In this document: piece by piece, positions 4,202 through 64,000 of the stretch
Layout: each line of letters begins with the position of its first letter
How positions within the stretch are numbered: the first letter of the stretch is position 1
NCBI GenBank assembly: GCA_947464275.1
Contig: CANHVU010000002.1
Coordinates: 124,001-188,000, forward strand
DNA from: Bacteroidota bacterium
GTDB taxonomy: Bacteria > Bacteroidota > Bacteroidia > UKL13-3
Reading direction: 5' to 3'
DNA: 64,000 bases
Notes under the pieces: generated by a model
Seen by the model: only the letters and a program-made list of their open reading frames with translations
Database searches by the model: none
Told to the model about the DNA's origin: nothing
Translations under genes and position numbers: made by a program

Positions 4202-6478
4202 TTACTCAATCACCAAACGCTTTACCAATTGTTTGCCAGTTTCAGTTTGGATTTTTACAAAATATACACCCGCATTTAGATTTATCAAATCAATAGTTGC
4301 AGATTGAGTTGCGCGAGCCATTGGTTGATTAATAACTGTTGCACCTAAAATATTGATGATACTTACTTGCGCTTTTTCATTCAATAAATCGGTTTCAATA
4401 GTTAATTTATTTTTGGCTGGATTAGGATAAATTTTGGCTTCAAATGTTTGTTCTGTTAAATCATTGGTAGTTGATAAACTTATTTTCCCTAAAATAGTAC
4501 TTTTATAAAATTTAAATCCACCACGTTGGTTTCCAATTAACACCTCAGGGCTAGCATCAGCATCAATATTTGCAATGGTAACACTGGTATAAACCCCTTG
4601 AGAAATACTATCAGCAGCCATGATTGCATCATCTTTAAATATATTAGCAATTCTACGTGCTTTTATTGCAGGATTAGCACTGATATCAGTAAATAAAACT
4701 ACACTTTTGCTATAACTTCCAATTAAAGCTTCGTAAATACCATCATTATCCAAATCAAATACAAATGGATATGCATTTCCATAACTTTCGTTTCTTGATC
4801 GAACACTTAATTTCCCTAATGAATCTATAGTGGGGGTAGAATTAAATGCAGGTTCTGAAATTGTTCCAGTGTTTTGATAATAAGCCATGGTTCCGTTGTA
4901 TTTTCCAATAACTAAATCAAGTTTTCCATCAGCATTTAAGTCAATTAACTGCGGAGCTGTTTGTGTGCCAGCATTTATATTAAAGTAATTGCTATCTCTT
5001 TTTGCAAAGGTAATATTAGCAGTAGTTGAAGTATTTTCATAATAGTTTAAATAACCATTATACCAACCCAAAATCATATCTTTTTTGCCATCATTATTTA
5101 AGTCGCCAAAGGTTGGAATTACATTGGTTAGTGGTAAACGTACATCCGCTTGAATATTGGCAAAATTGGTGTCTAACAAACTAAATACAGGATTGGTTTT
5201 AGTTCCAATATTTTTGTATAAATACAATTGGTCAAAATTATTTTTGGTACTTGAATAATTCCCCTGCGTTGCAACAATTAAATCTTGGTCATTATCATTG
5301 TCAATATCAACAAAAACAGGCTTGGAGTTTCCTCCTAAATCAATCATTTCATCTATTAAAAAATTCTCTTTCACAAATTGAAATTTGGCAGCAGTATTAT
5401 TACTAGTTGCAGTGTTTTTATATAAATTTACATGGTTAGTATTTTTAACAGCCGCAGGTTCATTAGTTGTGATGATTAGGTCAGTGATTCCATCATTATC
5501 ATAATCTTGAAAATAGGGGGTAGGCCACGATAAATCTAATGGACGATAAGTGTTTCTTGGGAAAATGGTGTCTTCGGTTACGAAGGAGTCTCTTAACAAA
5601 GAATTTGTCTCTCTACCGTTTTTAGCAAAAATCAAAGTATTGAAAAATCCATCACCATAAATAAGGTCTTTATCGCCATCCGCGTCAGTGTCAAAAACAG
5701 CAAAGGAATTGCTTACATGCTTTCCACCCTTGCCTAAATAATAGGCATCTAATCCAAAGTTAAATCCATGAGTGTTTACTTTATAACCTACATGTCCCCA
5801 AAAATTAACACCAAATCCGAAATTAATTGAATCGCAATTATTTTTTGGTCTTCTATTTCTATACAAATCAAAATAATTTGATCCTGAAGGCATATACACT
5901 ACATCGGGGTCGCCATCATTATCCATGTCCTCTATTGCTCCTATATCAGTTGGGGTGAATTCCAAGCAATCTTCAAAATCGGCACTGTTTAAGTAGGTTA
6001 AACAATTACTTCTTTGTTTAAATTTCAGATTATTGGTTGTTGAAATATTTTGCAGATATCTTATTGAGTTTGATTTTACAAATTCTCCAGGATTTAATAC
6101 ATATGCTGGTCCAGATGCTGTTAGTAAATCGTCCTTTCCATCGCAATTGAAATCAGTTATTTTTAACCATTGCGAAATATTAGGTAAGAATTTTTCGTAA
6201 GAAGGTTCATAAACCCAACTATTATTTTTCCAAAGGTAGGTAAATACTTTGTCGCCAATACCGTCAAACACTACTAAATCTTTTTGTCCATCATTATCTA
6301 AATCTATCTTATTGAATTGTGGTTTTTGAAAACCACCAACAAAAGGGTATTTCAAAGTATCTGTGCTGTTTCTTTTTAAAAACTTTGCGGTATTAGCTAA
6401 AGTAAAATATACATTTTGAGCATTCATTATTGAGTTTATAAACAATATTGAAATAATAGCAAGTATGAATTTACGCAT
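4202..6478 (-). CDS. Secreted FG-GAP/VCBS repeat protein with T9SS type A C-terminal sorting domain
   Basis: Repeated D(L/I)DNDG-type motifs; C-terminus IYPNPAKNKLTIET...GVYFVKIQTETGKQLVKRLVIE. Confidence 0.88.
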   Translation of the reverse strand: MRKFILAIISILFINSIMNAQNVYFTLANTAKFLKRNSTDTLKYPFVGGFQKPQFNKIDLDNDGQKDLVVFDGIGDKVFTYLWKNNSWVYEPSYEKFLPNISQWLKITDFNCDGKDDLLTASGPAYVLNPGEFVKSNSIRYLQNISTTNNLKFKQRSNCLTYLNSADFEDCLEFTPTDIGAIEDMDNDGDPDVVYMPSGSNYFDLYRNRRPKNNCDSINFGFGVNFWGHVGYKVNTHGFNFGLDAYYLGKGGKHVSNSFAVFDTDADGDKDLIYGDGFFNTLIFAKNGRETNSLLRDSFVTEDTIFPRNTYRPLDLSWPTPYFQDYDNDGITDLIITTNEPAAVKNTNHVNLYKNTATSNNTAAKFQFVKENFLIDEMIDLGGNSKPVFVDIDNDNDQDLIVATQGNYSSTKNNFDQLYLYKNIGTKTNPVFSLLDTNFANIQADVRLPLTNVIPTFGDLNNDGKKDMILGWYNGYLNYYENTSTTANITFAKRDSNYFNINAGTQTAPQLIDLNADGKLDLVIGKYNGTMAYYQNTGTISEPAFNSTPTIDSLGKLSVRSRNESYGNAYPFVFDLDNDGIYEALIGSYSKSVVLFTDISANPAIKARRIANIFKDDAIMAADSISQGVYTSVTIANIDADASPEVLIGNQRGGFKFYKSTILGKISLSTTNDLTEQTFEAKIYPNPAKNKLTIETDLLNEKAQVSIINILGATVINQPMARATQSATIDLINLNAGVYFVKIQTETGKQLVKRLVIE

Positions 6479-49950: not shown

Positions 49951-52233
49951 ATGATTAAAAAAATTTGCATCACGCTATATCTGTTTTTACCCATTTTTAT
50001 TTTAGCCCAACCTGCTGGTGGCCTTGGAACTTGGCGCGTCCATTTGCCATATTGGCAAAATAAAACCATAGCTGCTATTGGCAGCACAGTTTATGTTGGT
50101 TCATCAAGTTCAGTTTTTTCATACAATGAAGCCGATAAAGAATTAGAACGCATTTCAAAAGTTAATGGACTTTCAGATGTGGAAGTAAAGTTATTGCGCA
50201 GCAATCCTAATAATAATTTACTATTTATAGTTTATGAAAACGGAAATATTGATTTGCTCCAAAATGAGGTAATTACCAACATGCCACAGATTTTTCAACG
50301 TAATGTAATTGGCAAAAAATCTATTAATGATTTAACCTTTTACAACGGAAAAGCTTATTTGGCTTGCAGTTTTGGTATTGTTGTAATTGATATTAATAAA
50401 AAACAAATTGTTGATTCGTACCAAAATATTGGTGTTAATGGTAGTAATATTGAAATTTTAGACGTAGCCATTTTAGATAATTTTATATACGCATCAACTT
50501 ATAATGGTGTTTATAGGGCTAAGTTAAACAGTGGTAATTTGAGTGATTTTAACTTTTGGAGTCTAGTTAAATCATCTACAAAAAGTAATAAAATAGAAGC
50601 TTATAATGGAATGTTGTATGCCGAAATTGATAGTGTTTTAAATACTTTTAGCAATAATACTTGGACAGCAAGTAATGATTCTGATTTGAATAATGTACTT
50701 GATTTAGTTATTAGTAATAATAAATTAATTGTCACTACCTATCTTAATGTAAGTGAAATTGCTGCAAATAATGTAATAACTAAAACAGGGAAAGCACTTA
50801 AAAACTCCGCAATCCAATTACCTAACAACCGATTTGCTTGTGTAGATAATTTTGCGGGCATCCATCTTTTTCCGGGTGGAGAGTTTAATGGGTCTGACTT
50901 TATTTATCCAAATGGTCCATACAATAAAATTGCCACTGATTTTAAATTTATTAATGGAAAAATATATGCTGCAAGTGGTTATGCACCTTACTTTAACGAA
51001 AGTTTTAGTCACAATGGTTTATATATTTTTGATAATAATATTTGGACTAATACCAGTCAAGGAAATGCAATTACACCTGATTCCATAAGAGATATTTTGT
51101 CGATAGCTTACGATAATGTAAATGATAAACTTTTTGCAGCCTCTTATGGTTCAGGCTTGGTTAAAATGGATTTGACAGGCAAAGTAGAAGCGGTTTACAA
51201 TAAAAACAATAGCATTTTGCAAGAAGCATTTGGCGGAAGTTGTCGTGTTCCTGCATTGGCTTTTGATGCTGATAATAATTTATGGTTTACGAATCATTCT
51301 AGTGGTCAACCATTGTGCGCATTAAAGTCAGACGGTACGATGCAATGTTTTTCAGTAGGTAACGTTTTTGGCGGAAGTAATTATGTTACTGCAATTGCCA
51401 TTGACGATATGAATCAAAAATGGGTAGCTCATTCGCGTGAGGGAGGTTTACTTGTATATAATAATGGACTAGATATTAATAATGCAAATGATGACGCTTA
51501 TAAAGTATTGAATAAAGATATTGGAAATGGAGCCTTAGCGAGTAATCAGGTTAATTGTTTGGCAAAAGATAAAAATGGAGAAATTTGGGTTGGAACAAGC
51601 GAAGGTCTGAGTATTTTTAGTAGTCCTGAAAGTGTATTTGATGGTTCTGATAAAACATCATTCGATTCTCGCCAAATTGTAATAAAAACAGGCTTGGTGT
51701 ATTCCAATTTTTTAGGCGGAGAAAATGTAACTTGCATAACTGTTGATAAAGCCAATAGAAAGTGGATTGGAACTAATAATGGTGCTTGGTTAGTATCAAG
51801 CGATGGATATACTGTAATTCATAATTTTACTACCAAAAACAGTTCATTAATAGATAATAATATTTTGAGTATTGGTGTAAATGATAATACCGGAGAAGTT
51901 TTTTTTAGTACTTTAAAAGGTATGGTTAGCTTCATGGCTGATGCTACTGAAGCTAAGGAAGACTATAATGCTGTAGATATTTACCCAAATCCTGTTCGTC
52001 CTAATTTTATTGGAAATATTGCTATCAAGGGTTTAGCCGAAGCAAATGCAAACGTAAAAATTACTGATATAGCAGGCAATTTGGTGGCAGAAACGCAATC
52101 TTATGGAGGTTTTGCAACTTGGGATGGTAAAAATTTCGCAGGTTCAAGAGTTTCAACCGGAGTTTATTTAATTTTTTCTGCAAGTAAAGATGGTGCTAAA
52201 TCGTTTGTAGGTAAAATTGCATTTATCAATTAA
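49951..52233 (+). CDS. porZ: T9SS-associated beta-propeller protein, PorZ-like, with type A sorting domain
   Basis: GTWRVHLPYWQNKTIAAIGSTVYVGSSSSVFSYNEADKELERISKVNGLSDVEVKLLRSNPNNNLLFIVYENGNIDLL; GEIWVGTSEGLSIF propeller motifs; C-terminal YPNPVRPNF...GVYLIFSASKDGAKSFVGKIAFIN. Confidence 0.85.
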   Translation: MIKKICITLYLFLPIFILAQPAGGLGTWRVHLPYWQNKTIAAIGSTVYVGSSSSVFSYNEADKELERISKVNGLSDVEVKLLRSNPNNNLLFIVYENGNIDLLQNEVITNMPQIFQRNVIGKKSINDLTFYNGKAYLACSFGIVVIDINKKQIVDSYQNIGVNGSNIEILDVAILDNFIYASTYNGVYRAKLNSGNLSDFNFWSLVKSSTKSNKIEAYNGMLYAEIDSVLNTFSNNTWTASNDSDLNNVLDLVISNNKLIVTTYLNVSEIAANNVITKTGKALKNSAIQLPNNRFACVDNFAGIHLFPGGEFNGSDFIYPNGPYNKIATDFKFINGKIYAASGYAPYFNESFSHNGLYIFDNNIWTNTSQGNAITPDSIRDILSIAYDNVNDKLFAASYGSGLVKMDLTGKVEAVYNKNNSILQEAFGGSCRVPALAFDADNNLWFTNHSSGQPLCALKSDGTMQCFSVGNVFGGSNYVTAIAIDDMNQKWVAHSREGGLLVYNNGLDINNANDDAYKVLNKDIGNGALASNQVNCLAKDKNGEIWVGTSEGLSIFSSPESVFDGSDKTSFDSRQIVIKTGLVYSNFLGGENVTCITVDKANRKWIGTNNGAWLVSSDGYTVIHNFTTKNSSLIDNNILSIGVNDNTGEVFFSTLKGMVSFMADATEAKEDYNAVDIYPNPVRPNFIGNIAIKGLAEANANVKITDIAGNLVAETQSYGGFATWDGKNFAGSRVSTGVYLIFSASKDGAKSFVGKIAFIN

Positions 52234-52337: not shown

Positions 52338-53366
52338 ATGCAAATTAGTGTAGCGCAATTAGCGCAATTGTTAAACGGGACAGTAGTTGGAAACCCTGAT
52401 ATATTGCTTCATACGGTAGCAAAAATTGAAGATGGCAAAGAAGGAGCTTTGTCGTTTTTAGCTAATATGAAATATGAATCGCATATTTACGATACCAAAT
52501 CAAGTGTGGTTTTGGTAAATAACGATTTTATCCCTAGTCAAGAAATAAAAGCTACTTTAATAAAAGTAGAAAATGCTTATGCTTCGTTCACCTTATTGTT
52601 AGAACAATTTGCAGCTTATGCCAATAAAAAAGAAGGAATTGAAGAAGGCGCGGTTATAAATAAATCGGCCGAGTTAGGTACAAATCTATACATAGGAGCG
52701 TTGGCTTATATTGCTAAAGGCGTAAAAATTGGAAACAATTCACAAATTTACCCAACAACATATATCGGTGATAATGTAACTATTGGCGAAAATTGTATCA
52801 TTTATGCAGGTGTGAAAATTTACAATGACTGTTCAATTGGCAATAATGTAATTATTCATTCGGGCACTGTAATTGGTAGTGATGGTTTTGGTTTTGCTCC
52901 ATTGGCCGATAGGTCGTATAAAAAAATTCCGCAAATTGGTAATGTAATTATTGAAGATGATGTTGAAATTGGCAGTAATTGCAGTATTGACAGGGCAACA
53001 ATGGGTAGCACCATTTTAAGGAAAGGTGTAAAATTAGATAATTTAAACCAAGTGGCTCATAATGTGGAAATAGGTGAGCATACTGTGATGGCTGGGCAAA
53101 GTGCCATTGCTGGAAGTACCAAAATAGGTAAATATTGTATTTTGGCTGGTCAAGTAGGAATAGGAGGGCATTTAACCATAGCCGATGGAACTGTACTTGG
53201 TGCTAAAAGTGGCGTAAACAGTAATGTTAAAAAGGAAAATCAAAGATTATTTGGTGCACCTGCTTTTGAGTATGCAGAGTCAATTAAAGCATCAATTGTT
53301 TATAAAAAATTACCACAATTGTATAAAACGGTAAATGAGTTAGAAAGAAAAATAAATGAAAAATAA
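52338..53366 (+). CDS. lpxD: UDP-3-O-(3-hydroxymyristoyl)glucosamine N-acyltransferase
   Basis: [53 protein letters not shown], hexapeptide repeats. Confidence 0.94.
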
Positions 53367-53437: not shown

Positions 53438-53923
53438 ATGACTATTACTGAGTACAATACATGCGTTAAAAATTATGCTGATGCGGTTTACCGATTCATT
53501 TATAAAAATATAAAAGATGAGGATAAGGCTAAGGATATAGTGCAAGACACGTTTGAAAAAATGTGGCTAAAGGTGGATAATATTATAGCTGAAAAGGCTA
53601 AATCGTATTTATTTACCGCTGCCTATAATACCATGATTGACTCTATAAGAAAAGACAAACACAAAGCAACCTATGAGGAACATTACGATGACTACTTAAC
53701 TACCAATAATAATTACAACGATTTGAAAAAAGTGATTAATTTAGCTTTTAGTAAATTGAATGAAATTCAAAAAAGTGTAATAATGTTAAGAGATTACGAA
53801 GGTTACTCGTATGAGGAAATTGGAAAAATTACTGGGCTTAACGAAAGCCAGGTTAAAGTTTATATTTATAGAGCTAGGCTAAATTTAAAAGAATACATTG
53901 GTTCGCTAGAAAATGTGGTATAA
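53438..53923 (+). CDS. ECF-type RNA polymerase sigma-70 factor
   Basis: DEDKAKDIVQDTFEKMWLKVDNI (region 2) and LNEIQKSVIMLRDYEGYSYEEIGKITGLNESQVKVYIYRARLNLKEYI (region 4). Confidence 0.92.
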   Translation: MTITEYNTCVKNYADAVYRFIYKNIKDEDKAKDIVQDTFEKMWLKVDNIIAEKAKSYLFTAAYNTMIDSIRKDKHKATYEEHYDDYLTTNNNYNDLKKVINLAFSKLNEIQKSVIMLRDYEGYSYEEIGKITGLNESQVKVYIYRARLNLKEYIGSLENVV

Positions 53924-53947: not shown

Positions 53948-55129
53948 ATGGAAATAAATATTAATAATTACGAAGAGATTATAATTGACTTTTTGGATGG
54001 AAAGTTGGATGATAATACTGTGGCTAAACTATTTGTATTTTTAGACCAAAACCCTGCTATTAAAGCAGAGTTTGATTTGCTTAACGCTAATCAAGCTACT
54101 TTACCAGCCGAACCAATAGCTTTTGATTTTTCGGATTTGCTTAAGCAAGAAAAAATAAATGTAGCCGATTATTCCAATAAATTAATAGCGCTTTTAGAAA
54201 ACGATTTAACTCTAGAAGAAACCAAATCATTAGAAGCTGAAATTAGCACTTACCCTGAGCTAGCTGCTGAATTTGAATTATTTAAGAAAACAAAATTAGT
54301 TCATGAAAATGAAATTGTTTTTGCTAATAAACAACTTTTAACTAAAAAAGGTGGTTTTACTATCATTCCTATATTTAACCGTTATTCAGCCATTGCTGCT
54401 GTTTTTATTGCTGTAGTTATGGGCATTTATTTCTTTACCAATAATAAAGGTGAGCAAATGGCCGATAAAGTAGATGCTACCATTGCTAAATCAAAACAAG
54501 ATTCAATAAGTGAAATACTTAAATCTAAAAATAACGTACAAAATCAGTTAGAAAAAGAAACTGAACGAAAAATGTTGGCATTTGGAGGAGTTAATGTAGC
54601 CAGTGTTCAAAAACAAAACAAAAAAGCAGTTTTGCCAGCAAATAAAAACCCACAAAACAAAAAACCAGTTAAAGAAAATCCATTAAATGGAGGTGCCAAT
54701 CAATCTGTTGTGCCCAATAATAATGCGCCTAAAAAAGTGGTGGCTGAAAATGGTGGTGGAATGGGTAATTTCGCAAGTGCTGATTTGCCTATAGTTAACA
54801 ATGATTTTAAAGTTCAACCTAAAATAGTTGAGAATGCTATTGGAAACAATAATAATGAACAAATTATTGCTTCTAATCCTATTGATAACAATAAAAATGT
54901 AGATTTAAGAGATTATGTTAAACAACAGCTAAAAATTACTGCTCAATCTGAAGTAATTGCGGTAAATAGACCAACTAATTCAAACGAAAATATTTCATTG
55001 GCAGAGTCAATTGGTTTGAATGTACTTTCTCTTCTTAATAAAGTTTCCAATCGTGATGTGAAAATTAAAAAAACATACAATAACGATGGTGAAGTAGAAA
55101 AAGTAAGATTGGTAGCTAGTGGCTGGTAA
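53948..55129 (+). CDS. Putative single-TM anti-sigma factor-like protein
   Basis: Directly downstream of the ECF sigma; two N-terminal anti-sigma-like helical repeats, one TM segment (YSAIAAVFIAVVMGIYFFT), Asn/Lys-rich distal region. Confidence 0.65.
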   Translation: MEININNYEEIIIDFLDGKLDDNTVAKLFVFLDQNPAIKAEFDLLNANQATLPAEPIAFDFSDLLKQEKINVADYSNKLIALLENDLTLEETKSLEAEISTYPELAAEFELFKKTKLVHENEIVFANKQLLTKKGGFTIIPIFNRYSAIAAVFIAVVMGIYFFTNNKGEQMADKVDATIAKSKQDSISEILKSKNNVQNQLEKETERKMLAFGGVNVASVQKQNKKAVLPANKNPQNKKPVKENPLNGGANQSVVPNNNAPKKVVAENGGGMGNFASADLPIVNNDFKVQPKIVENAIGNNNNEQIIASNPIDNNKNVDLRDYVKQQLKITAQSEVIAVNRPTNSNENISLAESIGLNVLSLLNKVSNRDVKIKKTYNNDGEVEKVRLVASGW

Positions 55130-55462: not shown

Positions 55463-58400
55463 ATGAACAAATCTACAAAACAAGAGTCCTTTGTGAAAAG
55501 GTGTTTAGGTTCAGCAAAAGTCACGCTTTTGCTCTTTCTATTAATGTTTGGAGTGATGCAAGTTCAAGCGCAGCTTACGGTTAGTGTAACTAACCCAAGC
55601 AATGCTACACCCGCATTATCAGCTTCCTACTCTTCACTTGCTTCTGCTATTACTGCTTTGAACTCATCAACTGCATTTAGTGGCCAAGTGATTTTAACTT
55701 GTTCAGGTACTTCTGAAACAGCACCAGTTGGTGGTTTTAGAATAGCCTTTACAGGAACTACTACAGGAACTAACAATGTAATTATTGATGGTTCTTCTAC
55801 TACAGTAACTGCAGCTAACTTATCTGCAACTACTGCAGGTGTTAGAACAGATGCCATTTTTAAAATTGTAGGTAGTGATTATGTTACTATCCAAAATTTT
55901 ACAATGACAGAAAATGCTGCTAACACTACAGGTGGTGCAATTGGTGTGCAAAAAATGACTGAGTTTGGTGTAGCATTATTTGCTTCATCTAATACCAATG
56001 GTGCTCAAAACAACACCATTAAAAACAATACCATTACTTTAAGCTCTGCTACCAAGTATCAAAATGCAATTGGTATTTTTTCTAGTACAGCTTCATCTGA
56101 AACAAACTCAGCGCAAGCAGCAGCTTCAGTGGCAGGTACCAACTCATTTAACATGATTTATGGTAACACTATTTCTGGAGTTGCCACAGGTATTTATTTT
56201 GTAAGTCCTGCTCAAACAGCTACTGTTTTTGAATCAGGTAATGATATTGGAGGTACTTCATTGAGTACTGGTAATACTATTACTTACGGTTGTTCAAATA
56301 CAGCTGGAGATTTAGGTTATACATCATATTCAGGAACTACAGCTGCAGGTGTTTATTTTAGAAACGTAGTTGGAAATAGTGTTAGATACAATACTATTAC
56401 AAACGTATCTACTTTAACTTTAACAAGTGGTGGTATTTTTTCAGCAAACGGTACAGCCCCTGTTTCAGTTCCTGTTTATACCTCTAATTTTAGTAATAAT
56501 ACCATTACCATTACACAAACTGCTTCAGTAGCCATTACAGGTATTGATTTTGGTTCAGGCACTGCCAATGGAACTATCACTTGTGATAATAATAAAATTA
56601 CAATTAACCATACCATAATTGCAGCAAACTCAGCAGCAGATAATGGTATCAAAGCCAATTATACTTGTGCTGGTGCATCTTTAAGTTATAACACAGTAAA
56701 TATTAACCAAGCAATTACAGCTACCGCTTCAATAGCATACGCAGGAACGCATTATGGTATTTGGATTCCTGGCGGATCTACTGCCAATATAACTGTTTAT
56801 GGTGATTCAGTAAATATTATCAAATCGGCCAATGCTTCTGCTACTTTTACTGCTACTCATAGTGGTACTGTTTATGGATTTAGTACATCAACCGCAGCTA
56901 GTTCTATGATTATAGGTAACTCAACTCCTGGAAATGGAAACGTTTTTATCATTAACGACAATCCTTCTGGTGCTGGTACTTATGCAGCAAGTTATATAAT
57001 TTACGGTTTTGATGGTAATGCATTGGCACACAATACCTATAGATGTGAGTATAACTATGTAGGAACAGGTAGAGGAAACTCTAGAAGTTCGAGTACTACT
57101 TATGGTTATTATTTACCTTCAGGAGGAAATAATACCATGTTTATTACTAATAATACGCTTTCTTTAGACAAAACAGGTGTAGCCACTGCGGGTGGAACTA
57201 CTTATGGCGTTTATGCAGGTGGTGCGGCTACCAATTGTCCAAATTACCGAATTGGCAACAATAACTTAACTTATAATAACCAAACAGCAGGAACAGCTAC
57301 TGGTACTTTTTATGGTATTTATACTTTTGATCAAAACAGTATGTTAACCAAAAAATACCAAACCAATAATGTTGTTTCAGGTAGTGGTTTGTTTACAACT
57401 TGTGTTGGTATATACCATTATTATGGAGATAATGTAGATTCTAATAATACAATTACTCTTACATCATCATCACCTACTACAAGCCCCGCACTGACTGGTA
57501 TTAGCTGTATCAATACTACACCAGCAGCATACAATGTGTATAATAATACCATCAGTTTAACTGCCACTGCAGGTAGTACCTCTGCTACCAGTCCAACTTT
57601 AATAGCAATTAACATGGCAGGTACCACTACAGCTAATTACTGCCACGATAATATCATTACCAATTTATCTACAGGAGCTACTACAGGTAATGCTACTGTT
57701 TCGGGTATCATTGTATCGGGTGGTGTTGAAAATAATGTTTATAGAAATAAAATATACAATTTATCAGCAAGCACCACCGGTGCAACCACTAGTATAGCCG
57801 GGATGAGAATTTCTGGTGGTACTTTGGTTAAAGTGTATAATAATTTAATATCACAAACCAATGCATTAACTGGTATCAATAATCCTAATGCAGTATTTGG
57901 TATTAATATTACTTCTACTTTAGCTCTTTCGGATATTAGAGTATATTACAATACAATCTATTTATCAAGCACCAATTCAGGTGGTACCAACTTTGGTGCA
58001 ACAGGTATTTTTCATACTTCAAATGCAACAGGAACGACTGCTAATTTAGACTTAAGAAACAATATTATTGTTAATAATATTACCCCTTCTGGAACTGGTC
58101 TTTCCATAGCATTTAGAAGAAGTTTAGCTACATTAGCCAACTATGCTACTACTTCAAATAATAACTTGTTTTATTGTACAAGTGGTTTATATGCTGATGG
58201 TGCGACAATCGATTCTACAGCATCAGCTATGATTTCGAGAGTTTCGCCAAGGGAAGGCAATTCTGTTAGTGAATCTTTATCTTTTTTAAACACAAGCTCA
58301 CCTTTAGGAGCTAATTTCTTAATGTTAGATCCATCAATTGCTACGCAAGTAGAAAGCGGTGGTTCATCAATTTCAGGTTACAATGATGATTATTTAACCA

Positions 58401-61400
58401 ATGGTGCACGTGCATCATATCCATTAACTGGTCAAGTATATGGTGGTGGAACTGCCCCTGATAGAGGAGCACAAGAAATGGATTTAACTCCAGCCGATTT
58501 ATCGGGTCCTGCTATTTCTTATACATTAGTGCCAAATACTACAAACACAAGTACAGTTTCATTAAATGCAACTATAACAGATGCAAGTGGTATACCTACT
58601 ACAGGTGCAGGCTTACCAACTTTATACTGGAGAGTGGGAACAACAGCTCCTTACACTGCGGTAACAGGTACTTATGTAAGTGGTTCAACTTATAATTTTG
58701 TATTTGGTGGTGGTGCAGTTAATGACTTGATTAGCTATTACATAGTAGCACAAGATAATGCAGCAACTCCAAATGTAACAGTATCACCTGCAACAGGTTC
58801 TGCAACACCAACCATTAATCCTCCTGCAGTAGGTACTGCTCCAACATCTCCAAATACTTATACTATTTTGGATGCATGGAATGGAACTTATGTAATAGGT
58901 GGTAACGGTGCTGGTTTGGCAGTAGGTGCTAACTATGTTTCTTTAACAGAAGCAGTAGGTGAAGCTTTACCAAATAGAATTAAATCAGTATATGTCACTG
59001 CAGGAGGAACAGGTTACACTTCTGCCCCTACTATCAGTTTTACTGGTGGTGGTGGAACAGGTGCAGCTGCAACTGCTGTTGTATCGGGTGGTGTAATTAC
59101 TAGAATTAACATGACAGCTTATGGAACAGGATACACATCTGCTCCAACTGTAGTTATTACCGGTGCTGGAACAGGTGCTACTGCTACAGCTAATTTATCA
59201 GGTGGTAGAGCATTGTCAGGCCCAGTTACTTTCTTATTATCATCTAATTACGATGGAACATTATATGAGTCAATTTTCCCTATTACCATTGGTGATATTG
59301 GACAAACTGCTACCAACACAGTAACCATTAAACCAGCTACTGGTGTTAATGCTACTATTAGTGGTTCATCGCTTACAAGTATCATTGATTTATATGGTGC
59401 TGATTATACTACTATTGATGGTTCAAATAATGGAACTGCATCAAAAAATTTAACCATTACTAATACTAATACATCTGCGAATACAGCGGTAATTAAAGTA
59501 ACTAGTTTAGGTGTTGGTTTGGGTGCTACTAACAACACTATTAAAAATTTGAATTTGTCTAATGGTTCAACTAGTGTAGTTAATTTTGGAGTTTTTGTAG
59601 GTGGAACAACTATCATTTCATCAGGTGCAGATAATGATAATACAACGATTCAAAACAATAATATTACTAATGCGACCACTGGCATATATGCAATAGGAAC
59701 TACAGCAACAAGTTCAGGTGGACTTGATAACTTAATGATTGTTGGAAATAATATTTCTTTTACAGCATCTGTTACCGGGGTATATGGAATTAGGGCAGGA
59801 TTTGCATTAAATGCTTCAATTAGTCAAAATACAATTGATATTGAAACATCAACAGCCAGTCTTGCTGCCATCTCACTTGAAACAGGCTTTGTTTCTTCCG
59901 TAGTGAATGCAAATCGTATTACAAAGGTTAAAGCAACTGCTGCTGCCACTATACCTATCAATAGAGGAATAGTTATAGGTACGGGTCAAACAGGAAGTAA
60001 TGTTACCATTTCAAACAATGTCATTTACAATGTTATCTCAACATACGCAACTACAAATGTTGGATCAAATTGTACCGGTATTATGATTGGTGCAGTTGGT
60101 GTGGGTACTACCTATTCGATTGTAACAGGTGGTATTAATTTATACCATAATAGTATTAATCTTTATGGCAATGTTGATAGAAATGCAGCATGTTTTCAAC
60201 ATAATGTATTTATTGGATCAGCAGCTACTAGCCTTGACATCAGAAATAATGTTTTTACTAACTCAATTGAGAATACAAATGCTTCAGGAACGACATCAAA
60301 ATCATATACCATTTATTGTCAGTCTGCTAATACTGCTTTCTCAAATATCAACTATAACGACTATTATGTTTCTGGTTCGCAAGGTGCATTAGGTTTCCTA
60401 ACATCAGCTAGAACAACCCTTGCTGATTTAATAACTGGATTTGGTGGAAATGCGAACTCATTAAATGTTGACCCTGCTTTCAATGCTAATAATGTTTTGT
60501 TTCCTCAAACGGGAGCTCCCATATTGGGTGTTGGAACACCTATCTCGGGTTTAACTACTGATTTTTTAGGTACAACAAGAAGTTTAACAGCTCCTTCAAT
60601 AGGTGCCTACGAAAATGGTGGTGACGGTGCTGCACCGGTAATTACCTTTAGTTCCTTAACCAATAGGACAGCAAGTGCTGATAGTACTATAATTGCTACG
60701 ATTCAAGATTTAGGTACATTAGCTGCTGGAACTGATTCAACAGTTAATAAACCAAGATTATATTTCAAAAAATCAACTGATGCTAATACATTTGGTGTAG
60801 CAAATGATTCAACTGGTAACGGTTGGAAATATGTTACCACTTCTTCAGTTGGTTCTCCTTATACTTTAAGTATTGACTACTCATTATTACGTTCTAGCTT
60901 AAATAATGCTGATATAATTCAATACTTTGTGGTTGCTCAAGATTACGCAGGTAATATTGGTGCCAGTCCTTCAACAGGTTTTGATGGTACAACAGTTGGT
61001 AATATTGTTTCAGGTCCAACAAATCCAAACTCATATATTATTATTGGGCCTCCAATTTCAGCAGGAACCTATACTATTGGAACTTCGGTGGCTAGTAATT
61101 ACCCTACCATTACAGCAGCGGCAAATGATTTTACGCTGCGTGGAATTGCAGGTGCGGTTACATACGAATTAGTTGACCCTGCTTATAATTCAACCACAGG
61201 AGAAACTTTCCCTATCGTTTTTGGAAATACTGTGGGAGCAAGTGCTTCTAACACCATAACCATTAGACCAATTGCTGGTAACAATGGAGTGGTAGTTACT
61301 TCATCAAATGGTACTGCTACTTTCGACTTAAATGCTTCAAAATATTTAACTTTTGATGGAAGACCAGGAGGAACTGGTTCATTTACTAGTGGAACTAACC

Positions 61401-64000
61401 TAGTTATTAGTAACACTGCAACTACCGCTCCGGCTATCAGATTAATAAACGAAGCAAGTTATAACAATATTCTATATTGTGATTTACAAGCTAACAATAC
61501 AACTGCAACAACAGCTACAGCTGGAGGAGGGGTAGTTTGTATTGGAGGTACTACTGGTGCAAATGGAAATGATAATAATACAATTTCATATTGTGACATA
61601 CACAATGCAGTAGGAGGAAACCCGCTTATGGCTGTTTATGGTTATGGAAGTGCAACAAGCGTTGCTGCCAATAATGACAGTAACTATGTAACTAATTGTA
61701 ATATTTATGATTTCTTTAGTGCTGCCACTGCCACCGCGGGTGTTTATGTTGGTGTAAATAATGGTTATTGGAGAATTAATAACAATCGTTTCTACCAAAC
61801 CACAAGTAGAACTTTGACTGGTGCAGTTGTTCATCGTGCCATTTGGTGTACTCCTAATACAGGAACTTTAACATCAGCAAGTGGATTTACAATTAATAAC
61901 AATTTTATTGGTGGTAACAGTGCTGCTGGTACTGGTATGTATACATCAACTTCAGCAGTTGCTTCTTCTTTCTTAGGAATGGATGTTTCAGTTGGTCAAG
62001 GTGCTTATACTGAAATACAAAATAATACCATTACTAACATTAACCAAACTTCAGCAAATACTAACTCTGCTGTTTTAGTAGGTATTAAGATTGCAAATGG
62101 AAATGTGAATGTAGGTACCACTAGTGGTAACACCATTGGTTCGACTACAGCAAATAGTGCGATTATCTTAAACACATCTGTTGCTGGTGGTGGATTTATT
62201 GGTATTCAAACAACTGCCGGACCAAACATCAATATTTCAAATAACCGAATTTCTGGTATTGAAATGACAGGTACAGTATCAACTGCTGCTTGTGAATTTT
62301 TTGGATTGGCTTTGTCTGGAGGTAGTAACCTTAATGTAACTAACAATGTTATTGGTGACTCTAGCTTAGCTAATAGTATTAACTCTTCATCTGCAGCATC
62401 TACTTCAACATTTGCACAAAGAATACAAGGTATAATTGTTAATCCATTATCTGGTACTCCTAATTATAATATTTCAAACAATTTGGTTGCAAATATTAAT
62501 AGCAATTACTCTGCAACTGGAACACAGGCAGCAAGTGTTATTGGTATAAACATGGCAGCTGCCTTTGCTGGTACTTATAATATTACCAACAATACTTTTA
62601 GAAATTTATCTTCTGCTACTCAAACAACTGGAACAGGTGCAAGTGCAGCAATTACAGGTATTTCTGTTAATACTGCTACTGCTAATTCAAACGCTACTGT
62701 GACAGGTAATACTGTCCATACTTTAATTGAAACTGGCGCTACAGCTAATTCAGTAAATGGTATTTATTTCTCAGGTGCCGCATCTGGAACCTATGCATTT
62801 ACTAAAAATTTCATTCACTCAATCAAAGTAAGTGGAATAGGTTCAAGCATAAGAGGATTTACAGCTGCAGCAGGTATTTCAAATATCAATAATAATATGG
62901 TTCGTATTGGTATTGATGAAACAGGGGCTGATATGACTACTTCGGCCGGTATTCAAGGTATGAGCATGACAGGTGGAACACACAATGTTTATTTTAATAC
63001 TGTTTTAGTTAATGGTTCAAATGTAGCTAGTGGATCGGATAGTACTTATGCTATCAGAAGTACAATAGCCTCTGGAACGAATATTTACAAAAACAATATT
63101 TTTGCTAATACTCGTCAAAATAGTGCTTCAACGGGTAAACATTATGCTATGTCGTTTGCAGGTACTACTGCGCTTCCTAGCGGCTTAACATTAAATAACA
63201 ATAATTATTACACAGTTTCTTCTCCTCTTGCTTTATACAATGGAGTAGATAGAAATGACCTGAATTCATGGAGAACAGCAGTTGGTTTAGATGCCAATAG
63301 TATGGTAGAAGCACCTGTTTTCGTATCAGCAAATGGAACAAATAGTACGGTTAACCTTCATGTAGTTCCAGGAACACAAAGTTTAATGGAATCAGGTGGA
63401 ACTGCTATCAGTGGATTAACTACTGACTTTGATGGTGATGCTAGACCAGGTCCTGTGGGTGCAGTGAATGGTGGAGGTTTAGCTTCTGATATAGGAGCTG
63501 ACGAATTCGATGGTTCTATGTTCCCAATCAATATGGGTGTTCAGATGCTGGTTTCACCTGTTGGAAGTTGTGCTATAGCTGGTAAAACAGTAACAGTTAG
63601 AATTAAAAATTACTCATTGACTCAAACTATCAATTTTGCTACAAATCCTGTTACCATAAACGGAAGTGTTTCAGGACCTAACCCTACTACTTTTGGAACT
63701 ATCACTTTAAACAGCGATACTTTAACAGTTGGTGGAACCTTAGACATTACATTTACCACAAACTATGATATGAGCAATTTAGGTACTTATACCTTTGATG
63801 CTTACACTAGTGTTACAGGAGATGCAAATAGTTCTAACGATGCTATGCCGTCAACAAACATTGTTATTACAAGTTTAACAGCAGGAACAGTTAGTGCAAA
63901 CGAAAATTCTTTCTGTAAATTAACTGGCCCTCCTACTTTAACTACTAATGCCTCTGGAGGAGATATTCAATGGATGTATTCAACTGTTAGTAATGCTGGT
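55463..64000 (+). CDS. Giant modular beta-helix/Ig-like secreted surface protein (partial, runs off right edge)
   Basis: ATG at 55463: MNKSTKQESFVKRCLGSAKVTLLLFLLMFGVMQVQAQLTV...; same frame still open at 64000 (...CKLTGPPTLTTNASGGDIQWMYSTVSNAG); T/S/G/N-rich repeats with NNTI-type beta-helix motifs; absent from the ORF track because there is no stop in the window. Confidence 0.88.
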   Translation, partial: MNKSTKQESFVKRCLGSAKVTLLLFLLMFGVMQVQAQLTVSVTNPSNATPALSASYSSLASAITALNSSTAFSGQVILTCSGTSETAPVGGFRIAFTGTTTGTNNVIIDGSSTTVTAANLSATTAGVRTDAIFKIVGSDYVTIQNFTMTENAANTTGGAIGVQKMTEFGVALFASSNTNGAQNNTIKNNTITLSSATKYQNAIGIFSSTASSETNSAQAAASVAGTNSFNMIYGNTISGVATGIYFVSPAQTATVFESGNDIGGTSLSTGNTITYGCSNTAGDLGYTSYSGTTAAGVYFRNVVGNSVRYNTITNVSTLTLTSGGIFSANGTAPVSVPVYTSNFSNNTITITQTASVAITGIDFGSGTANGTITCDNNKITINHTIIAANSAADNGIKANYTCAGASLSYNTVNINQAITATASIAYAGTHYGIWIPGGSTANITVYGDSVNIIKSANASATFTATHSGTVYGFSTSTAASSMIIGNSTPGNGNVFIINDNPSGAGTYAASYIIYGFDGNALAHNTYRCEYNYVGTGRGNSRSSSTTYGYYLPSGGNNTMFITNNTLSLDKTGVATAGGTTYGVYAGGAATNCPNYRIGNNNLTYNNQTAGTATGTFYGIYTFDQNSMLTKKYQTNNVVSGSGLFTTCVGIYHYYGDNVDSNNTITLTSSSPTTSPALTGISCINTTPAAYNVYNNTISLTATAGSTSATSPTLIAINMAGTTTANYCHDNIITNLSTGATTGNATVSGIIVSGGVENNVYRNKIYNLSASTTGATTSIAGMRISGGTLVKVYNNLISQTNALTGINNPNAVFGINITSTLALSDIRVYYNTIYLSSTNSGGTNFGATGIFHTSNATGTTANLDLRNNIIVNNITPSGTGLSIAFRRSLATLANYATTSNNNLFYCTSGLYADGATIDSTASAMISRVSPREGNSVSESLSFLNTSSPLGANFLMLDPSIATQVESGGSSISGYNDDYLTNGARASYPLTGQVYGGGTAPDRGAQEMDLTPADLSGPAISYTLVPNTTNTSTVSLNATITDASGIPTTGAGLPTLYWRVGTTAPYTAVTGTYVSGSTYNFVFGGGAVNDLISYYIVAQDNAATPNVTVSPATGSATPTINPPAVGTAPTSPNTYTILDAWNGTYVIGGNGAGLAVGANYVSLTEAVGEALPNRIKSVYVTAGGTGYTSAPTISFTGGGGTGAAATAVVSGGVITRINMTAYGTGYTSAPTVVITGAGTGATATANLSGGRALSGPVTFLLSSNYDGTLYESIFPITIGDIGQTATNTVTIKPATGVNATISGSSLTSIIDLYGADYTTIDGSNNGTASKNLTITNTNTSANTAVIKVTSLGVGLGATNNTIKNLNLSNGSTSVVNFGVFVGGTTIISSGADNDNTTIQNNNITNATTGIYAIGTTATSSGGLDNLMIVGNNISFTASVTGVYGIRAGFALNASISQNTIDIETSTASLAAISLETGFVSSVVNANRITKVKATAAATIPINRGIVIGTGQTGSNVTISNNVIYNVISTYATTNVGSNCTGIMIGAVGVGTTYSIVTGGINLYHNSINLYGNVDRNAACFQHNVFIGSAATSLDIRNNVFTNSIENTNASGTTSKSYTIYCQSANTAFSNINYNDYYVSGSQGALGFLTSARTTLADLITGFGGNANSLNVDPAFNANNVLFPQTGAPILGVGTPISGLTTDFLGTTRSLTAPSIGAYENGGDGAAPVITFSSLTNRTASADSTIIATIQDLGTLAAGTDSTVNKPRLYFKKSTDANTFGVANDSTGNGWKYVTTSSVGSPYTLSIDYSLLRSSLNNADIIQYFVVAQDYAGNIGASPSTGFDGTTVGNIVSGPTNPNSYIIIGPPISAGTYTIGTSVASNYPTITAAANDFTLRGIAGAVTYELVDPAYNSTTGETFPIVFGNTVGASASNTITIRPIAGNNGVVVTSSNGTATFDLNASKYLTFDGRPGGTGSFTSGTNLVISNTATTAPAIRLINEASYNNILYCDLQANNTTATTATAGGGVVCIGGTTGANGNDNNTISYCDIHNAVGGNPLMAVYGYGSATSVAANNDSNYVTNCNIYDFFSAATATAGVYVGVNNGYWRINNNRFYQTTSRTLTGAVVHRAIWCTPNTGTLTSASGFTINNNFIGGNSAAGTGMYTSTSAVASSFLGMDVSVGQGAYTEIQNNTITNINQTSANTNSAVLVGIKIANGNVNVGTTSGNTIGSTTANSAIILNTSVAGGGFIGIQTTAGPNINISNNRISGIEMTGTVSTAACEFFGLALSGGSNLNVTNNVIGDSSLANSINSSSAASTSTFAQRIQGIIVNPLSGTPNYNISNNLVANINSNYSATGTQAASVIGINMAAAFAGTYNITNNTFRNLSSATQTTGTGASAAITGISVNTATANSNATVTGNTVHTLIETGATANSVNGIYFSGAASGTYAFTKNFIHSIKVSGIGSSIRGFTAAAGISNINNNMVRIGIDETGADMTTSAGIQGMSMTGGTHNVYFNTVLVNGSNVASGSDSTYAIRSTIASGTNIYKNNIFANTRQNSASTGKHYAMSFAGTTALPSGLTLNNNNYYTVSSPLALYNGVDRNDLNSWRTAVGLDANSMVEAPVFVSANGTNSTVNLHVVPGTQSLMESGGTAISGLTTDFDGDARPGPVGAVNGGGLASDIGADEFDGSMFPINMGVQMLVSPVGSCAIAGKTVTVRIKNYSLTQTINFATNPVTINGSVSGPNPTTFGTITLNSDTLTVGGTLDITFTTNYDMSNLGTYTFDAYTSVTGDANSSNDAMPSTNIVITSLTAGTVSANENSFCKLTGPPTLTTNASGGDIQWMYSTVSNAG

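Follow-up and report, generated by a model that had tools for sequence, protein, structure and literature searches.

A giant reading frame that runs off the right-hand end of the window, by which we mean the whole 64,000-nucleotide stretch analysed (G000:C2:124001-188000 of its own genome), raises the question of what kind of protein it encodes and by which signal such a protein would leave the cell. The frame starts at the ATG at 55463 on the forward strand and is open through 64000, which gives 2846 codons in the window and confirms, by frame reading, the earlier note's claim of a single frame of at least that length reaching the window edge. Extension along the contig finds no early stop past the window; the frame is stop-free to the contig edge at 190726 (C2) and still open there, so that the giant ORF comprises at least 3754 codons, with a predicted full-length protein of ~3820 amino acids. 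Its open length is far beyond chance, since none of 200 shuffles of its 11,262 bases contains a frame open for more than 180 codons, and GC by codon position (0.40/0.55/0.18) is strongly coding-like. It is probably missing from the ORF track through running off the window. The explanation that we favour, with moderate confidence, is that the product is a giant adhesin exported by the T9SS and that its tail is a sorting/anchoring domain of this system not recognised before. The parts of the gene are as follows.

55463..64000, then beyond the window to the contig edge, + strand: giant ORF, an open frame of at least 3754 codons.
55463..55570, + strand: Sec signal peptide without lipobox (sequence and hydropathy heuristic).
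55580..58483, + strand: module 1, beta-helix-like, closing motif DRGAQEMD (BLASTP E 3e-7 against module 3; also similar to the relatives L104/L090).
58484..58879, + strand: Ig-like linker 1, GPAISYTLVP... (from the sequence; approximate boundary).
58880..60622, + strand: module 2, predicted parallel beta-helix, closing motif SIGAYENGG (AlphaFold2, Foldseek; choice_anch_Q below cut-off).
60623..61045, + strand: Ig-like linker 2, APVITFSSL... (from the sequence; approximate boundary).
61046..63514, + strand: module 3, beta-helix-like, closing motif DIGADEFDG (E 3e-10 against module 2; further homologues are the giant proteins L031, L047, L049 and that of C30).
63515..64000, + strand: start of the C-terminal region, with Ig_7 repeats, fn3 and the C-terminal module following outside the window.

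The protein opens with a convincing Sec signal peptide (MNKSTKQESFVKRCLGSAKVTLLLFLLMFGVMQVQA|Q...) that lacks a lipobox, and the three modules and their closing motifs (at 58460, 60596 and 63488) lie where they had been described. Aligned with one another, modules 1-3 are weakly but significantly homologous, with 27-40% identity over parts and a best BLASTP E of 3e-10. Ig-like linkers do follow modules 1 and 2, in the reverse of the order first reported (GPAISYTLVP comes first and APVITFSSL second), and the proposal that each module is followed by an Ig-like stretch does not extend to module 3, where a different stretch (FPINMGVQMLVSP...) stands and no third linker copy is found. An AlphaFold2 model of module 2 (58880-60637, from an alignment of five homologous giant proteins) has a mean pLDDT of 62.7, with most of the core at ~60-90, and a pTM of 0.75. 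Its best PDB matches in Foldseek are LnbX, the pneumococcal adhesin PfbA, the phage HK620 tailspike, AlgE4 and polygalacturonases, all with modest scores (E 1.5e-3 upward, TM-scores ~0.3). The model supports, with modest confidence, a parallel beta-helix as the fold class of module 2 and does not indicate a close relative; modules 1 and 3 would be beta-helical by homology, and the idea of repeated beta-helices stands to that extent. Module 2 would thus share its fold class with parallel beta-helix surface proteins and glycan-active enzymes such as PfbA, LnbX and phage tailspikes, whereas the giant protein has three modules in series and its beta-helix modules have no sequence match among solved structures. 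Pfam finds four stretches of Ig_7 (E 8e-24) and an fn3 domain (E 3e-5, residues 3542-3615), the best-scoring of which fall outside the window, and the only NCBIfam match is choice-of-anchor Q, below cut-off. In its body, the protein appears to be a large new member of a familiar adhesin-like kind with a presumed adhesive function.

The end of the protein is less familiar. The last 119 residues on the contig (3636-3754; C2:190368-190724) are part of a C-terminal module of ~190 amino acids that occurs in nine proteins of this genome, in seven as a complete copy, and in 7/7 complete copies the module is the protein end and the final residue is proline. Its consensus starts ...LNLTAFLQGLYLG...ADTITVEL...VIKHRNSIETWS...YDFSS..QAFG.N...GVFLIYSGDINQDGSIDFADYP.LD...GY and, after GY..., ends DLNGD.SVDFGDYP.LD.NS..GII...P-stop; no model in Pfam or NCBIfam names the whole of it. 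Near-identical copies in otherwise different genes are found at C2:190368-190724, C30:26772-27335 and C33:2-391, with DNA identity leaping from ~50% to ~97% at the module start, a pattern that suggests recent exchange of the module between genes as a unit, by gene conversion or shuffling. The contig very probably breaks inside the module because C2, C30 and C33 share this near-identical copy. Neither the last 628 bases nor the C30 tail, used as queries against the genome, locates the rest of the giant gene on any contig, and the last ~70 residues, including the dockerin half, are therefore inferred from the module copies. The assemblies of three related genomes (L051, L103, L070) likewise break within the module, and metagenome assemblies may often cut genes of this kind short.

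Across 84,980 species genomes, a scan yields 329 related stretches; the labels of the records behind the best 80 all name Bacteroidota groups or Ignavibacteria. The module is the protein end in 73 of the 75 relatives whose stop codon is present, with Pro as the last residue in 67, Pro-Tyr as the final pair in 5 and Pro-Asn in 1. An Ignavibacteriales copy (L100:5001-5585) is among the very few exceptions and extends 22 residues beyond the aligned module end. Two EF-hand-type loops are evident, both with positions 1, 3, 5, 9 and 12 conserved at >=88%. The family profile matches solved dockerins with its C-terminal part only (~residues 111-180, best E 9e-6), and Pfam Dockerin_1 is hit in 40 of the 68 members, in most of them weakly (best 6e-10); on the C30 copy this model (PF00404) scores 15.5 bits against a cut-off of 22.9. 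For the sandwich half, Pfam and NCBIfam hold no family among the 68 members, and NCBIfam gives no real match. AlphaFold2, run with the 68 sequences, folds the module at a pLDDT of 97.4 and a pTM of 0.91 into a beta-sandwich that spans residues 2-126 and, behind it, two loop-helix units that form a dockerin-like EF-hand pair, whose two loops would be expected to bind calcium. A PDB fold search with the whole module returns nothing at E <0.001; the matches are mainly sandwiches of the transthyretin/Ole e 1-like type, with low TM.

Bacteroidota proteins normally carry their T9SS export label at the C-terminal end. A standard sorting domain of this kind had been expected past the window, and an unnamed module is found in its place: no type A domain (TIGR04183/PF18962) is detected by Pfam or NCBIfam on the 3754-aa giant ORF, the last ~70 residues of the protein lying outside the assembly, and neither type B (TIGR04131/PF13585) nor type C (NF033708) is found on the giant ORF or in 68 module relatives. 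The suggestion of a T9SS-exported surface protein is partly supported, by the Sec signal peptide and by the T9SS machinery of the genome (SprA E 1.9e-160, PorV E 1.1e-62, and PorZ), and not by any known sorting domain. Among module ORFs with a visible start, 39 of 44 have a Sec signal peptide and none has a lipobox, and the cargo bodies are unrelated (subtilase, endonuclease I, sortilin/BNR and giant Ig proteins). This genome has 107 type A CTD matches, 0 of them on module proteins.

A link to secretion comes from a replacement test, in which the N-terminal functional parts of an EndA (C14) and a sortilin-like protein (C13) were used to find their best homologues across the phylum. All 46 homologues with complete ends (28 EndA nuclease, 18 sortilin/BNR) carry TIGR04183, and the C14 EndA and C13 sortilin of this genome have the module at the place of the type A CTD. 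Two EndA paralogues here differ in the same way, C14:45580-48252 ending in the module and C4:13209-15338, 53% identical, in a type A CTD. Of 396 phylum genomes, 42 contain the module, and every one of these is SprA-positive; none of the 92 SprA-negative genomes has it (hypergeometric 7e-6). This co-occurrence is weaker than its P suggests, as the SprA-negative genomes largely belong to one family (f19), which accounts for all of those listed from outside this class, and provide few independent contrasts. Genes flanking module genes encode T9SS cargo in 22 of 74 cases (~30%; 18 type A and 4 type B), against a background, taken from this genome only, in which a type A CTD occurs roughly every 32 kb. 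Genes for surface and extracellular proteins tend to cluster in any case, and these cargo neighbours are for that reason weak evidence. No common shuttle-like gene was found beside module genes among the neighbours examined, and PorP/SprF is outside their most frequent neighbour families.

In Flavobacterium johnsoniae, CTDs combine an exit signal with a targeting signal that is read by shuttles: PorV recognises type A, and PorP/SprF recognises type B (PMC12618676). The simplest reading is that the module is a further signal of the same sort. The ORF, the domain order, the C-terminal place, the predicted fold, the confinement to T9SS-positive genomes among those sampled and the replacement of the CTD in two cargo families are computed directly, and the module on this reading would be a new variant of T9SS sorting/anchoring domain that confers transport by this system. 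The giant protein would be Sec-exported and surface-displayed, with three beta-helix-type modules and Ig-like linkers, then Ig_7 and fn3, and would end in a ~125-residue beta-sandwich rigidly fused to a dockerin-like EF-hand loop pair with a conserved final proline. After Sec export the module would be recognised at the outer membrane instead of a type A CTD, read by a shuttle or receptor, and then be cleaved or retained after transport, while its two calcium-binding loops would fold or lock it. A more specific version, which we put forward tentatively and with some doubt, is that the sandwich and EF-hand module constitutes a further T9SS signal class beside A, B and C, in which extracellular calcium folds the dockerin-like end and thereby completes, locks or anchors the protein.

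Dockerin-like folds elsewhere serve in docking and not in secretion, which counts against the sorting reading. On an alternative view, the proteins are exported by some route and the dockerin-like end binds a cohesin-like surface receptor, as in cellulosomes, without being a secretion signal. The profile matches to solved dockerins described above, which include an X-module-dockerin chain (2b59_B, E 0.008), the Dockerin_1 scores among relatives and the resemblance of a C-terminal beta-sandwich plus dockerin to X-module-dockerin tandems all fit such a role. However, cohesin (PF00963) is absent from the genome even at E 10, a route across the outer membrane would still be needed by a giant protein that has neither another T9SS CTD nor a lipobox or an autotransporter domain, and the module stands instead of the type A CTD and not beside it. 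The absence of cohesin and the replacement of the CTD disfavour this main rival, which we judge unlikely.

Slightly less likely again is that the module is a mere calcium-stabilised end cap against proteolysis, with the export signal elsewhere or the proteins periplasmic. A compact, high-confidence predicted fold with two loops of calcium-binding type would suit a cap, but the module is almost always at the very end, has a conserved final proline, is attached to unrelated cargo, occupies the place of the CTD in families of known T9SS cargo and transfers as a unit between genes. It is very improbable that the giant ORF, or its tail, arose through misassembly, with the copy of a repeat from a different gene fused on at the contig end. 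The contig does break within a repeat, and its final 356 bases are 96% identical to the C30 copy; against this, one unbroken frame continues into the module, the C30 gene, with its flanks intact, has the same order of fn3 followed by module, and the related giant proteins L031, L104 and L090, from other genomes, also terminate in the module.

The sorting reading finds a close parallel in the type A CTD, which like the module is a C-terminal, beta-sandwich-containing domain of Sec-exported, unrelated Bacteroidota cargo, stands at the corresponding position in EndA and sortilin-type proteins and has a conserved C-terminal end. The module differs in its length (~190 against ~72-80 residues), in the lack of a sequence match and in the extra dockerin-like EF-hand pair, and its conserved motifs HRNSIETW and GDINQDG are unlike those of type A, whose CTDs have a conserved C-terminal motif of their own (PMC11285876). 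Types B and C are alternative C-terminal signals, as the module would be; type B cargo comprises known or predicted adhesins and requires larger C-terminal regions (PMC12618676, PMC10202324). In contrast to both, the module has no family match in 68 members, and the genes flanking it differ as noted above for PorP/SprF. Dockerin type I and X-module-dockerin proteins have two calcium-loop-plus-helix units C-terminal behind a beta-sandwich, as predicted for the module, whereas the two genome copies tested are below the Pfam cut-off, no cohesin partner is found, the module occurs in T9SS Bacteroidota and no X-dockerins appear among the fold-search matches listed. No papers on a dockerin-like or EF-hand T9SS sorting domain were found in the openly licensed literature.

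To our knowledge, genomes are screened for T9SS cargo almost exclusively with models of the type A, B and C domains. If the module is a sorting domain, these models overlook a whole group of exported proteins, with nucleases, subtilases and giant adhesins among them, in many Bacteroidota and Ignavibacteria (42/396 sampled genomes; 329 related stretches), and a calcium-dependent element in T9SS signal recognition and retention would become testable. Even if it serves only in docking or capping, it represents an unnamed, high-confidence domain family that is missing from the Pfam and NCBIfam libraries searched.

Three genes upstream of the giant ORF complete the setting.

49951..52233, + strand: PorZ, T9SS attachment-complex protein (NCBIfam NF052228, E 1.3e-176, full length).
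53438..53923, + strand: ECF-type sigma factor (Pfam Sigma70_r2 and r4_2 above cut-off).
53948..55129, + strand: putative anti-sigma-like membrane protein (one hydrophobic stretch, position behind the sigma gene; no Pfam match).

The ECF sigma gene and the putative anti-sigma gene, the latter a candidate by its position and hydrophobic stretch, lie directly upstream of the giant gene and may control it; a search upstream of 55463 for a Bacteroidota-type -33/-7 promoter gave no match to the consensus used. PorZ carries a weak type A CTD at its C-terminus, and a gene resembling lpxD by sequence (52338-53366) is located between PorZ and the ECF sigma gene. Other T9SS cargo is also encoded in the window, with a strong type A domain at 4208-4432 on the reverse strand (E 5.7e-16) on a 759-codon frame.
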